A stretch of DNA of 64,000 nt from Phycisphaerales bacterium (GTDB taxonomy: Bacteria > Planctomycetota > Phycisphaerae > Sedimentisphaerales > Anaerobacaceae): positions 62,001 to 126,000 of the forward strand of contig JAUVYV010000003.1 in the NCBI GenBank assembly GCA_030602885.1, given 5' to 3'. Made by a program: the position numbers and the translations under genes. The stretch's first letter is position 1. Each line of letters starts with the position of its first letter. The notes beneath the pieces were generated by a model, which made no database searches, was not told the DNA's origin, and was given only the letters and a program-made list of their open reading frames with translations. Below are positions 4,135-48,504 of the stretch, piece by piece.

Positions 4135-5289
4135 TCAGCTCGCAGCTAAATCACGAATAAGCCCGTGGGCCGCTTCGTTCTTAAGTTCCAGCGTGTACTC
4201 ACCAATCAGCTCGCCGCACTCGTAGTCACCACCGCTCGCCAACGGCTTGAAGTGGAAACTGCGACCCGCCAAAGGCAGTACATTCGCCCGCGAAGAATCC
4301 AGCAGCAGCACCGCATCTTGCGGCAGCCACCGTGTCGTCACAATCCTACAAACACCAAAGTCGCTCTCATAGATGCTGATCATGTCAGTGTAAGTGGTCT
4401 CACCAGCCGCAAAGCTCCTGCTGCTGGCCGCAAAAGCGTTTATCTTTCGCTTCTGAAAACCGCCCACAACAATCAGGTCCACGTTACCGTTGCTGTTCTC
4501 CCATATCTGCCTCAACACATAGTTGATCTTCGCCTCATCCAACTCCGTCCCCGTCGGAAACCCACTGTCACCGGTGTGGAAGACATTCGTTGTCAGATGC
4601 TGGACAATCCCCTTCATTGTCCGTCGCACCGAGTCGTCCCCCTGCGGGCTTGTAGCCGGTTGTCCTCCACTGATCACCGTGTTCTCCAGATCGCGAATCA
4701 GCTCACGAAGCCGCTCCTGCTTCTGATAATCCATCTCATCGGCCAGACCAAGCTGGCTCGCTGCCATATCGGTCCCGCTCACCTCCACCGTCGCCGCAAA
4801 TATCTGCGTATAGTTGCCACACCTGTCGCGATTCGTAAACCTCGCACTCGGTTTGTCCGCACCCTCAAGAGCCGCATTACCTAAGATGTTGATGACCTGA
4901 TTGTCCGCCAGATCCTCAGCCGTCGTGCCCGCGTATCCGCGAACAACCGTCAGCGTGTCACTGTTCACAGCCGTCACCAGCATCAGCTCCTCGCTGTCTT
5001 GAATCTGAATCTGATCACCCACACGGAATCGACTGCCGTTATCCACATCAAAGTTCGTATCCGCAGCCGGATCGCTAAATGTGCTGTCATTGACCGCATC
5101 CTTGTTCGCCAGCAGCTTATCCTCCAGCCACTCATGATGCGTGCTTCGCACCTCCGTCAGCGGGTCACCCAGAGCATCCAGCAGCGGTGTCTCATATGGT
5201 GACACTATCCCAATCAAATCCGAAACGTCCTCTGCCAGCTCCGGCAAAGTCGTACCCGCCGAATATGTCGCCTTTCCTGTAAAAGCCAT
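4135..5289 (-). CDS. Major capsid protein, SU10/DUF5309-type (HK97-like fold)
   Basis: 384 residues with AGGAGAG seven bases before the ATG. The N-terminus 'LAEDVSDLIGIVSPYETPLLDALGDPLTEVRSTHHEWLEDKLL' matches the hallmark opening of DUF5309/SU10-type major capsid proteins (established family knowledge; similarity judged by eye). It continues with an E-loop-like region, 'FRVGDQIQIQDSEELMLVTAVNSDTLTVVRGYAGT', and ends in 'LKNEAAHGLIRDLA', which is also typical. It forms the shell of the particle. Gene order portal-scaffold-capsid is the classic Caudoviricetes head module. The frame is intact, with no sign of decay. Confidence 0.88.
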   Translation of the reverse strand: MAFTGKATYSAGTTLPELAEDVSDLIGIVSPYETPLLDALGDPLTEVRSTHHEWLEDKLLANKDAVNDSTFSDPAADTNFDVDNGSRFRVGDQIQIQDSEELMLVTAVNSDTLTVVRGYAGTTAEDLADNQVINILGNAALEGADKPSARFTNRDRCGNYTQIFAATVEVSGTDMAASQLGLADEMDYQKQERLRELIRDLENTVISGGQPATSPQGDDSVRRTMKGIVQHLTTNVFHTGDSGFPTGTELDEAKINYVLRQIWENSNGNVDLIVVGGFQKRKINAFAASSRSFAAGETTYTDMISIYESDFGVCRIVTTRWLPQDAVLLLDSSRANVLPLAGRSFHFKPLASGGDYECGELIGEYTLELKNEAAHGLIRDLAAS

Positions 5290-44108: not shown

Positions 44109-44462
44109 TCAGCCGCCCTTCGCATTGTTGGCGCCCTGAGCAAGCGGCTGCGGCTCGACTACCTTGCGATAGCCGAGTGCTTTTATTACCTCAAGAACCT
44201 CTGTCCATGTTGGAAATGGTCGCGTGTTCCGACGCTTATATTCGTCGATTGCCATCAGAAATTCAAACTGCTCGTCCGACATTTGTCCTTCTTCGGCACT
44301 GCGTCGCTCATCGCTTCTCCGTCTGCCAGGCCCGCGGCGCCTGTCAAGACCCAAATGTTGATTGTCGGCATTCCGGCGGCGGTCCAGCCCTGAACGCCTG
44401 TCCACAACGCTTTGCCGCCGGTCACTGCCGCTTCTATGCTCTACAAAATCGTCCTGGTCCAT
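44109..44462 (-). CDS. Small conserved protein with G-x-DRR-rich N-terminus
   Basis: 117 residues. The first half repeats the theme 'GSDRRQ', 'RRSGLDRRR', '[18 protein letters not shown]', highly charged and probably disordered. The C-terminal 45 residues '[41 protein letters not shown]' form a compact helix-turn-helix-like unit that I have seen in planctomycete proteins of unknown function. The basic repeats could bind nucleic acid (inference). The DUF2007-like gene lies 114 bases upstream on the same strand. Confidence 0.65.
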
Positions 44463-44576: not shown

Positions 44577-44897
44577 CTAAAAATCGTCATCGAAGAACTC
44601 TGCGCCAAGGTCACTGTCGTCCTGCTCATCTAATGCAAAGTCATAAAAGTCATCGTATGCGTCCTGAGATTCAATGACCACATGCGCTTCGTCCACAAAT
44701 TCTTCCGGCACGAGCACAGCCACTCGTTCTTTGTCTGAAGAATCGTCTCTCTGTTCCCGTATTATTGCCGGTATGTCATTGTTTTTCAGAAGCGTTTCAT
44801 AGTCTCGCGCCTGTTCCATGTCATCGGCAAAGGCAACAACGACCAGCTCCTGAACTCGTGCCTGACCTTTCTGGCTTCTCGGACTATGCTTTACCAT
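44577..44897 (-). CDS. DUF2007-like putative signal-transducing protein
   Basis: 106 residues. The core 'LVVVAFADDMEQARDYETLLKNNDIPAIIREQRDDSSDKERVAVLVPEEFVDEAHVVI' has the DUF2007 pattern: a strand, a helix, then 'GI'-type turn (here NDIP) and a second strand-helix. The C-terminus is very acidic ('DEQDDSDLGAEFFDDDF'). The family is small, cytosolic and of unknown function. It is an intact relative of the interrupted DUF2007 gene at 7745-8285, though without the C-terminal zinc ribbon. Confidence 0.7.
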   Translation of the reverse strand: MVKHSPRSQKGQARVQELVVVAFADDMEQARDYETLLKNNDIPAIIREQRDDSSDKERVAVLVPEEFVDEAHVVIESQDAYDDFYDFALDEQDDSDLGAEFFDDDF

Positions 44898-45196
44898 TTC
44901 TTCTCTCCGAAACAGATGGATTATTTCGGCCCTTTTTCAGAAAAACCTTCGTCGAAATCTTGTCGTCAAAATAAGTCCGTGGAATTATCAAAAATTTGAA
45001 TGTTTTTTGCAGAAAGCCGGCTCCTCGCCCCATCTTGTATGTCGGCTGACAGGCGATTTTGGACCCTATAAAAATTTAGCGATACGCCCGATTTTTTTGT
45101 TGCAAATAGACACCGGTTCGGCAATAACAATCCTCTGAGTCGCGTTGTGGACTATTAGAATGTCACTTTTTAACTTGTTATGGAGGTTTATCGCAA

Positions 45197-45382
45197 ATGG
45201 CAAAGAAAAGAGAATCGTTGATTGTTGCGAGCAAGGTAAAGGCCTACATCAAGGCCAAGAAGATGATGACCTCATCCGAAGCGCTTGGGACTATTAGTGA
45301 TGCGGTCTATGCAATGCTTGATGTTGCGGCGACGAGAGCAAAGGCAAATCGTCGCAGTACCATAAAAGCGCAGGACATCTGA
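45197..45382 (+). CDS. Bacterial histone-fold DNA-binding protein
   Basis: 61 residues, preceded by GGAGG. The whole protein is one histone fold: alpha1 'VASKVKAYIKAKKMMTS', long alpha2 'ALGTISDAVYAMLDVAATRAKANR', and the loop-alpha3 ending 'RRSTIKAQDI', where the Arg-Thr and Asp pair matches the RKTIKxEDI signature of archaeal HMf-type histones. Length and pattern match the small bacterial histones described in Bdellovibrio (Bd0055). It probably forms dimers that bind or coat DNA. It stands alone and is followed by a strong terminator, so it is probably monocistronic and well expressed. Confidence 0.85.
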   Translation: MAKKRESLIVASKVKAYIKAKKMMTSSEALGTISDAVYAMLDVAATRAKANRRSTIKAQDI

Positions 45383-45915
45383 GACCCAATTGCTGTAACA
45401 ACTGCTGAGGCAGTATCTTATAGTTAAGCGCGTGACTATGTTGACCGAGCCGTTCCGCACTGCGGGTGCGGAACGGCGTTTTTTTGCGTCTATGGGCTTC
45501 TGCCATCCGGCGGCCTGACGGCTAATCTCAGTTATCAGTCCTTGTCCGAAATCCCGGAAACTATTCCGCGTGTTTGGTTTATCGAAGACCCGCCTGCGTT
45601 CTTTTTGACTCACACGCCGCACCGCCCTTCGCTGACCGGTAAAATCCGCCTTACCGCCACAAAAACGCCGCTTTTTAGAAAATTTACTGGATTTGGCAAT
45701 GTGAAAAACCCGATTAGTACAACAGGAACTGTGATTATAAGAGTGTTTTTCTATCTGTGCCCGATTAAGGCCATATTACTTCGTGCCGATAACCTGCTTA
45801 CCAGCAGAGTGCAGTCGGGCTGTGCAAGTCCCCAACTGCACTGATTGCTTACCTGAGGTGGACTGTAAGCTGCTGGTGGATAGGCAGTTACAAAAGAGAA
45901 GCAGCGAGGAGTTAA
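45383..45915. other. Intergenic region between histone and glucan operons
   Basis: After the histone gene and its terminator (45449-45485), about 430 bases lie before the glucan genes. The one plus-strand track ORF (45542) has no family-like content. A promoter for the glucan operon is expected near its 3' end, but no good -35/-10 pair was found. Confidence 0.5.
45449..45485 (+). terminator. Intrinsic terminator of the histone gene
   Basis: A perfect 12-bp stem GCCGTTCCGCAC / GTGCGGAACGGC with a five-base loop is followed by seven Ts. It lies 67 bases past the histone stop and is the clearest intrinsic terminator in the window outside the trp leader. Confidence 0.92.
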
Positions 45916-47208
45916 ATGAGAGTCTTCATGTTGGGTTGGGAGTTTCCGCCGTTTATCAGTGGGGGGCTGGGGACGGCTTGTTACGGTCTGACCAAGGCGC
46001 TGGACCAGCTCGGCACGGAGGTCATCTTCGTCCTGCCAACCATGGTCCAAAGCAGGTACACTACCCACGTAAAGCTTCTTACCCCCGATTTGGCGATGTC
46101 CGAAGCCCCCTTCAAGGTTCACCAGCTCAAGAACGTGTTGTTTCGGACAATCACTTCTCCCCTTCAGCCATATCTGACATCAAGCGATTATCAGCAGCAT
46201 ATCGAACAATCCCTGGCGCATATCCAGAGGCAGCGAGGACAAACCTATGACCTCTGCGGCGGTCTCGACTACAGCGGTGATATGTTTACCGAGGTCGCCC
46301 GTTATGCCCAGATTGCCGTCAAACTCGCCGAAAATGAGCATTTTGACGTCATACACGCCCACGACTGGATGACCTATCCCGCCGCCGTCGCCGTCGCCGC
46401 AGGGCTGCACAAGCCGTTGGTCGTGCACATCCATTCCACTGAGTTTGACCGAAGCGGAGAGCACGTTAACCAGCCCATATACGATATTGAGCGGGAAGGC
46501 ATGCATGCTGCCGACAAGGTTATCACCGTCAGCCACTACACCCGCAGCATATTAATCAGTCGCTACGGAATCCCCGGTGAAAAAGTTGAAGTTGTTCATA
46601 ATGGCGTCGAACGCAATGGAAATCAGAACTGGTCATTGGCCGACGGCGAGATCAGCAAGGACGAGAAAATTGTGCTCTTCCTCGGCCGAATCACGATGCA
46701 GAAGGGCCCCGAATACTTTCTGAGAGCGGCCAAAAAGGTCCTTGAAAAAATGGATAATGTCAAATTTGTCATGGTCGGCTCCGGTGACCTTATGCATCGA
46801 GCTGTTGAAATCGCAGCCGAGCTCGGAATCGGAAGCAAAGTCCTCTTTACCGGATTTCTGCGAGGTGACGATGTTCACAAGATATACAAAATGGCCGATT
46901 TGTATGTCATGCCATCGGTTTCTGAGCCCTTCGGAATCACCCCGCTTGAGGCCCTTGAAAATGACGTGCCCGTCATCATAAGCAAGCAGAGCGGAGTATC
47001 AGAAGTCTTACAGCACGCGCTCAAAGTCGATTTCTGGGACGTCGATGAGATGGCCAACAAAATTATCGCCGTTCTCAAGTACGCACCACTCGAAATAACG
47101 CTGCGAAACCACGGCAATTTTGAAGTCAGAAGACTGCGATGGATCGATTCCGCCGAAAAGTGTCTGAGAATTTACGACGATGCTTTAGCCGCAGTCGCAT
47201 ACGCATAA
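45916..47208 (+). CDS. Glycogen synthase-type glycosyltransferase
   Basis: 430 residues; GAGGAG precedes the ATG. The start 'MRVFMLGWEFPPFISGGLGTACYGLTKAL' is the starch/glycogen synthase-like N-domain with the GGL loop, and the C-domain has 'KIVLFLGRITMQKGPEYFLRAAKKVL' and 'MPSVSEPFGITPLEALENDVPVIISKQSGVSEVL' with the EX7E. It probably builds alpha-1,4-glucan from ADP- or UDP-glucose, supported by the GH57 and debranching genes 42 bases and 1.3 kb downstream. Confidence 0.85.
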   Translation: MRVFMLGWEFPPFISGGLGTACYGLTKALDQLGTEVIFVLPTMVQSRYTTHVKLLTPDLAMSEAPFKVHQLKNVLFRTITSPLQPYLTSSDYQQHIEQSLAHIQRQRGQTYDLCGGLDYSGDMFTEVARYAQIAVKLAENEHFDVIHAHDWMTYPAAVAVAAGLHKPLVVHIHSTEFDRSGEHVNQPIYDIEREGMHAADKVITVSHYTRSILISRYGIPGEKVEVVHNGVERNGNQNWSLADGEISKDEKIVLFLGRITMQKGPEYFLRAAKKVLEKMDNVKFVMVGSGDLMHRAVEIAAELGIGSKVLFTGFLRGDDVHKIYKMADLYVMPSVSEPFGITPLEALENDVPVIISKQSGVSEVLQHALKVDFWDVDEMANKIIAVLKYAPLEITLRNHGNFEVRRLRWIDSAEKCLRIYDDALAAVAYA

Positions 47209-47250: not shown

Positions 47251-48504
47251 ATGGCTTCGGTATGTTTCTACTTTCAGGTACATCAGCCCGCGCGGCTTAG
47301 ACACTATACCGTCTTTGACAACAAAGCCGATTATTTTGATGACTACAAAAACGCCGAAATCTGCAGAAAGGTCGCCAACAAATGCTATCTACCTGCCAAT
47401 CGATTGATCCTTGATATCATACGCAGATGCGACGGCAGGTTTAAGGTTGCCTACTCGCTCACAGGCATTCTCCTCGAGCAGCTCTTTTCATTCTCCCCGG
47501 AAGTGATGAGCACTTTCGATGCGCTTGCCCAGACCGGCTGCGTCGAGTTCCTTGCCGAAACATATTATCACAGCTTGAGTTTCCTGTATTCGCACGACGA
47601 GTTTGTTGAGCAGATAAATAAGCACGCTGAAACCATTGAGAAGCTCTTTGGCCAAAAACCACGTATCTTCAGAAATACTGAGCTTATTTATAACAATGAC
47701 CTTGCTGCACTGATTGAATCCACCGGTGCCTTCGATGCGATCATAACCGAAGGAGCCGACCACATCCTTGGCTACCGCAGCCCAAATTTCATCTACAGGC
47801 CAAAAGGATCTGAAAAGCTGAAGTTGTTGCTCAAAAATTATTCGCTCAGCGACGATATTGCCTTCAGATTCTCAAATCGCCACTGGACGCAGTGGCCCCT
47901 GACCGCCGAAAAGTTTGCCCGCTGGGTCAACGACGTCAACGGCAACGGCTTTGTCGTGAACCTCTTCATGGATTACGAAACATTTGGCGAGCATCAGTGG
48001 GCCGATACCGGTATCTTCGAATTCATGCGACACTTGCCGGAAGAGGTGCTCAAATACCCGGATAATGGCTTCAAAACACCTTCCGAGGTCATCAAAGCGT
48101 ACGAGGCCGTAGATACTGTCGATGTCCCGCATTTGATTAGCTGGGCCGACACCGAAAGAGACCTCTCCGCCTGGCTCGGAAATGCCATGCAGTCAAATGC
48201 CATACATGAGCTCTACCGAATGGAGAAGAATATCAAAAGCAGCGGCGATCAGGATTTGATCGCGGACTGGAGGCGACTGCAGAGTTCCGACCATTTCTAC
48301 TATATGTGCACCAAGTACTTCGCCGATGGCGACGTCCATAAGTATTTTAATCCATATGATTCGCCTTATGACTCATACATCAACTTCATGAACGTGCTGG
48401 GCAACCTGCAAAGTCGCTGTGCTAAAAAAACTTCCGGGCCGAATCTCCGCGAAATCACCCGGAACGAAATACCGCCTGACCTCCGCACGCAGGCAGTCCA
48501 TTGA
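47251..48504 (+). CDS. Glycoside hydrolase family 57 alpha-amylase-like protein
   Basis: 417 residues with GGGAG upstream. 'SVCFYFQVHQPARLRHYTVFD' is the GH57 opening; 'FLAETYYHSLSFLYSHDEFVEQI' and 'PRIFRNTELIYNNDLAALI' hold the nucleophile Glu region, and 'NLFMDYETFGEHQW' the catalytic Asp. Family members are alpha-amylases, 4-alpha-glucanotransferases or branching enzymes; the length and blocks favour an alpha-amylase type. It is the middle gene of the three-gene glucan operon. Confidence 0.88.
   Translation: MASVCFYFQVHQPARLRHYTVFDNKADYFDDYKNAEICRKVANKCYLPANRLILDIIRRCDGRFKVAYSLTGILLEQLFSFSPEVMSTFDALAQTGCVEFLAETYYHSLSFLYSHDEFVEQINKHAETIEKLFGQKPRIFRNTELIYNNDLAALIESTGAFDAIITEGADHILGYRSPNFIYRPKGSEKLKLLLKNYSLSDDIAFRFSNRHWTQWPLTAEKFARWVNDVNGNGFVVNLFMDYETFGEHQWADTGIFEFMRHLPEEVLKYPDNGFKTPSEVIKAYEAVDTVDVPHLISWADTERDLSAWLGNAMQSNAIHELYRMEKNIKSSGDQDLIADWRRLQSSDHFYYMCTKYFADGDVHKYFNPYDSPYDSYINFMNVLGNLQSRCAKKTSGPNLREITRNEIPPDLRTQAVH

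Follow-up and report, generated by a model that had tools for sequence, protein, structure and literature searches.

A 61-residue protein encoded in the window, the 64,000-nucleotide stretch of DNA analysed here, is very probably a chromosomal FtF (face-to-face) alpha3 histone, nearly without a tail, that would wrap DNA as a tetramer and organise it with HU. It is a well-conserved further member of a type already described in the phylum and not a new system. Planctomycetota are among the main bacterial holders of FtF histones (PMC11390915), so a planctomycete example, to which an earlier note on this DNA gave comparative value, is not new. In Sedimentisphaerales chromosomes, FtF histones are a stable, order-wide component beside HU that appears to be inherited vertically. 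The order-wide locus, the exact loss of the gene in one genus and a leader stem-loop found in relatives are worth following; none of the three was found in the literature (open-licence papers).

The histone gene and its predicted fold

The gene (Table 1) has an ATG start and a TGA stop and encodes MAKKRESLIVASKVKAYIKAKKMMTSSEALGTISDAVYAMLDVAATRAKANRRSTIKAQDI, a protein of 6.6 kDa with a pI of about 10.2 and a net charge of about +7.5. Across 37 equal-length homologs the median pS was 0.69 and the median pN 0.14. Because the codons are so strongly selected, the reading frame is a real gene, and it is under strong purifying selection.

Table 1. Features of the histone unit and its surroundings (positions in the window)
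Feature	Position	Strand	Description and basis
Gene for DRR-repeat-rich protein	44109-44462		117 aa, divergent, no family
Weak DUF2007-like gene	44577..44897	-	106 aa, divergent; below curated cut-off; context
Promoter-like pair	45100..45127	+	conserved upstream alignment (35 sequences); consensus-based inference
Shine-Dalgarno GGAGGT	45182..45187	+	9 nt ahead of ATG; sequence and conservation
Histone gene	45197..45382	+	61 aa; probable FtF-type alpha3 histone; ORF, phmmer, model, Foldseek, pN/pS
Intrinsic terminator of histone unit	45449..45485	+	12-bp perfect GC stem and T7
GT4/GT5-like glycosyltransferase gene	45916..47208	+	opens a separate unit; context
GH57 glycoside hydrolase gene	47251..48504	+	context

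When all PDB chains were searched with phmmer, the best match was HLp of Leptospira perolatii (9qt0; E 6.1e-13, 51 bits), followed by HBb/Bd0055 (8cmp; E 3e-5, 27 bits) and archaeal HTkC (E 0.02, 18.5 bits). An AlphaFold monomer model built from 47 related sequences had a mean pLDDT of 89.5. It predicts alpha1 at residues 11-20, alpha2 at 27-50 and a one-turn alpha3 at 58-60, lengths that fit the alpha3 family. Foldseek placed the HLp structures 9qt0 and 9qt1 first (TM to target 0.93, rmsd 0.9 Å). Next came HBb, for which the TM to target was about 0.85, and HTkC; nucleosomal histones ranked far lower. As judged from sequence and model, the protein is an alpha3-truncated histone. The single stand-alone histone fold of 61 residues claimed in the earlier note is thus borne out by the HLp sequence match, the model and Foldseek; neither another fold nor a loss of dimer-interface residues, the two outcomes named there as speaking against it, was seen.

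In Pfam no model scored above cut-off for the protein, the sole match being a sub-threshold one to DUF1931 (E 0.02), and NCBIfam gave no match, probably because the family is covered by no model. Automatic annotation may consequently overlook the gene. We rejected a pseudodimeric histone of the DUF1931 kind, since the match lies below cut-off and the chain holds one 61-aa fold, not two fused folds. A nucleosomal HMf-type histone, with an alpha3 of ~10 residues, was also rejected, since this chain stops after a single alpha3 turn. The archaeal nucleosomal histone HMfB shares the histone fold and the RxTxxxxD motif but has longer alpha2 and alpha3 helices than the planctomycete protein. HMfB polymerises into hypernucleosomes by a four-helix bundle.

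Distribution, neighbourhood and loss of the gene

The gene belongs to a MAG of the Sedimentisphaerales (Planctomycetota). This genome, 3.2 Mb in size and 97.6% complete, has a single copy of the histone and one HU gene. The MAGs with close homologs bear the names Sedimentisphaerales or Phycisphaerae (phylum Planctomycetota), in support of the planctomycete-type host suggested earlier. The histone was found in 121 of 148 sampled genomes of the order (59 of the 66 good ones) and in 140 of 392 genomes of a phylum sample, where none of the matches listed came from other orders of the same class. The order includes single-contig assemblies, some of which may derive from cultured species. A phage or plasmid origin was rejected, there being no match in phage or plasmid collections. 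Six related genes, at just 31-44% identity, lie on large IMG/VR contigs (138-619 kb); these histone-like genes (L141-L146, around position 5000) encode 59-66 aa. The FtF residues R and N are kept in L141 and L145 and not in L142-L144 or L146, and a phage-type helicase gene lies near the histone-like gene of L145.

The neighbours of the gene are also widely kept. Among 80 loci, several of them truncated, the gene for the 117-aa protein was present in 70, the DUF2007-like gene in 69, the glycosyltransferase gene in 71 and the GH57 gene in 67. This conservation of gene order across the order's loci points to vertical inheritance of the histone locus.

For genus g281 of the same family (L164-L171), a profile search of eight genomes, 85-99% complete, found no credible histone. 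Seven of them have the neighbours intact and in order, and in the eighth the contig stops next to these genes; from the divergent gene to the glycosyltransferase gene the distance is about 620-850 bp instead of 1019. The loss of the gene from an entire genus within the family means that the histone is not universally essential, and a genus missing just this gene offers a natural comparison for histone function. Each of the eight g281 genomes has at least two HU-family genes, while 9 of 13 histone-bearing genomes checked have one. The larger number of HU-family genes in the histone-less genus than in most histone-bearing genomes is suggestive only.

Conservation of the order DUF2007-like/histone/GT4/GH57 across Sedimentisphaerales could also be explained by a local role, for example in regulating the neighbouring glycosyltransferase and GH57 genes, in place of general chromatin organisation, and the codon usage does not mark the protein out as very abundant. 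We consider this improbable. Genus g281 retains the neighbours without the histone, and in some genomes copies lie outside this neighbourhood (L123). The gene has its own terminator and the protein no added domain, its DNA-contact residues are all kept or conservatively replaced, and its relative in Leptospira is a nucleoid protein of high abundance (PMC10627809). A general DNA-organising role is the reading that we prefer.

Assignment to the FtF histones and proposed mode of DNA binding

A survey of prokaryotic histones sets FtF histones, which have R and N as tetramer residues where alpha2 ends, apart from 'bacterial dimers' such as HBb, which are without both (PMC11390915). The tetramer of HLp is held by R49, N53 and R55, together with an R55-D62 clamp (PMC12701072). 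Subtracting 2 from the HLp number gives the number in the planctomycete histone, where the contacts correspond to R47, N51 and R53 and the clamp residue D62 to D60; none of the four residues varies among the 80 genome homologs. The interface residues of the FtF type are therefore present, and the fold typical of it, in which alpha2 is shortened and alpha3 reduced to 3-4 residues, is also seen in the model. An N-terminal tail is common among bacterial FtF histones, yet not defining (PMC11390915). Here it is absent: 7 residues precede the core, and nearly all close relatives are alike in this (7-10 residues in L061-L096). At other loci in the order (L005, L017-L019, L139) the same histone core carries Lys/Ala/Thr-rich N-terminal tails of up to about 50 residues, which resemble H1-like tails.

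The DNA-contact residues of HLp are A13, S14, K15, K17, K21, T27, G29, K54, T56, T57 and R59, with K54 and R59 coming from simulations (PMC12701072). In the alignment they map to A11, S12, K13, K15, K19, T25, S27, R52, S54, T55 and K57. Because the tetramer residues are kept, the DNA-contact residues correspond and HLp is the best match, the best reading of sequence, model and analogy is an HLp-type histone that would form tetramers and wrap DNA, not a histone of the Bd0055 type.

HLp (PDB 9QT0-9QT2, PMC12701072) has 63 aa and shares with the planctomycete protein the fold, the truncated alpha3, a stand-alone gene, the tetramer residues, the RD clamp and the DNA-contact residues, at about 44-46% identity. 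The two differ at G29 (S27 in the planctomycete histone) and F63 (I61), in host phylum and in neighbourhood, which for HLp is SMC/MAP/DUF350. Leptospira is also reported to be without HU, whereas the planctomycete genome has one. HTkC of Thermococcus kodakarensis (9F2C) is of FtF type with a similar alpha3 truncation, but it is archaeal and only about 31% identical. HBb and HLp are the only bacterial histones described as structurally and functionally characterised (PMC12701072), and alpha3 histones are generally single-gene units (PMC11390915).

The earlier note had taken Bd0055 of Bdellovibrio as the model. HBb/Bd0055 (Bdellovibrio bacteriovorus, whose genome likewise has HU; 8FVX, 8CMP, 9EZZ; PMC10627809, PMC11317129) works as a dimer by bending or coating DNA, and the planctomycete protein might do the same: the alpha3 fold, the short alpha2 and alpha3 and the loop-2 R-T-D motif are common to both, and the sequence match to 8cmp is significant. 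In HBb, however, S and D stand in the places of R47 and N51, and bacterial dimers are without the R and N (PMC11390915) that are invariant among the homologs here. With R47 and N51 present and a score of 51 bits to HLp versus 27 to HBb, Bd0055 is the wrong kind of model, and a dimer of this sort is quite improbable.

In an HLp-type histone, two chains would pair head to tail in a handshake dimer, and two such dimers would then dock at both ends via loop 2, the one-turn alpha3 and the C-terminal portion of alpha2, using R47, N51 and R53 with the R53-D60 clamp. DNA would be held without sequence preference via S12/K13, K15, K19, T25-S27, R52, S54/T55 and K57, and would wrap the rim of the tetramer; the analogy with HLp suggests a length of about 60 bp. 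The histone, presumably abundant and made from its own short mRNA, may have a general part in organising DNA alongside HU.

Expression unit of the histone gene

A ribosome site precedes every homolog, an ATGGAGG-like sequence being conserved there, in agreement with the strong ribosome site that had been noticed ahead of this gene. The promoter-like pair consists of TTGCAA (45100-45105), 16 nt and CAATAA (45122-45127), and AAAATTTAGC...TTTTTTTG stands ahead of it. When the upstream regions of relatives were aligned, a TTGCAA/TAATAA-like pair was followed by a leader and then ATGGAGG, the -35/-10-like position being conserved; a generic sigma-70 scan did not list the pair at 45100-45127. The terminator reads GCCGTTCCGCAC-TGCGG-GTGCGGAACGGC, then GTTTTTTT, and the scan counted 13 pairs in it. 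Terminator-like hairpins occur at the corresponding position downstream in 66 of 80 relatives, compared with about 16 in shuffles, and the claim that the gene has its own perfect terminator holds. The interval 45197-45485 given in the earlier note extends from the ATG through the last base of the T run. We also considered a structured 3′ UTR in relatives (TAACATC...GATGTTA; judged by eye) and rejected it, the pairing being broken in several of them.

The codon adaptation index of the histone gene, taken relative to ribosomal genes, was 0.759. This is an ordinary value, reached by 46% of chunks of that length cut from the window's genes. Ribosomal genes scored 0.72-0.82. Because these barely differ from the window genes, codon usage is uninformative on expression: high expression of the histone is neither shown nor excluded by it, and the description of the protein as well expressed found no confirmation.

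In many relatives (L061-L111) the leader ahead of the histone gene contains a stem-loop, GTGCCGGACT...AAGGATT...AGTGCCGG. Six tested pairs were paired in 87% of cases, versus at most 45% when slid, and changes on both sides in 14 cells gave modest covariation. In the window's own leader (45117-45182) the stem is not intact. Control of the histone mRNA in the order via this conserved stem-loop, lying between the promoter and the ribosome site, would be a case of dosage control of a bacterial histone, but it is unlikely; if it exists, its loss or change in the window's species would belong to the story as well. The broken hairpin and the shortness of the reading frame would also suit a chance ORF or a degenerate, unexpressed relic, but the probability of this is negligible, given the E value of 6e-13 to a solved histone structure, the conserved ribosome site and terminator, and above all the codon-level selection (pN 0.14 versus pS 0.69), which already refutes it.

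Further downstream, the leader of the glycosyltransferase gene contains an imperfect long hairpin at 45793-45884, CCTGCTTACCAGCAGAGTGCAGTC...GACTGTAAGCTGCTGGTGGATAGG. Nothing in Rfam reached the gathering threshold, and a match to mir-28 at this position was dismissed as chance by its score (23 versus 64 bits); the hairpin itself is real sequence.
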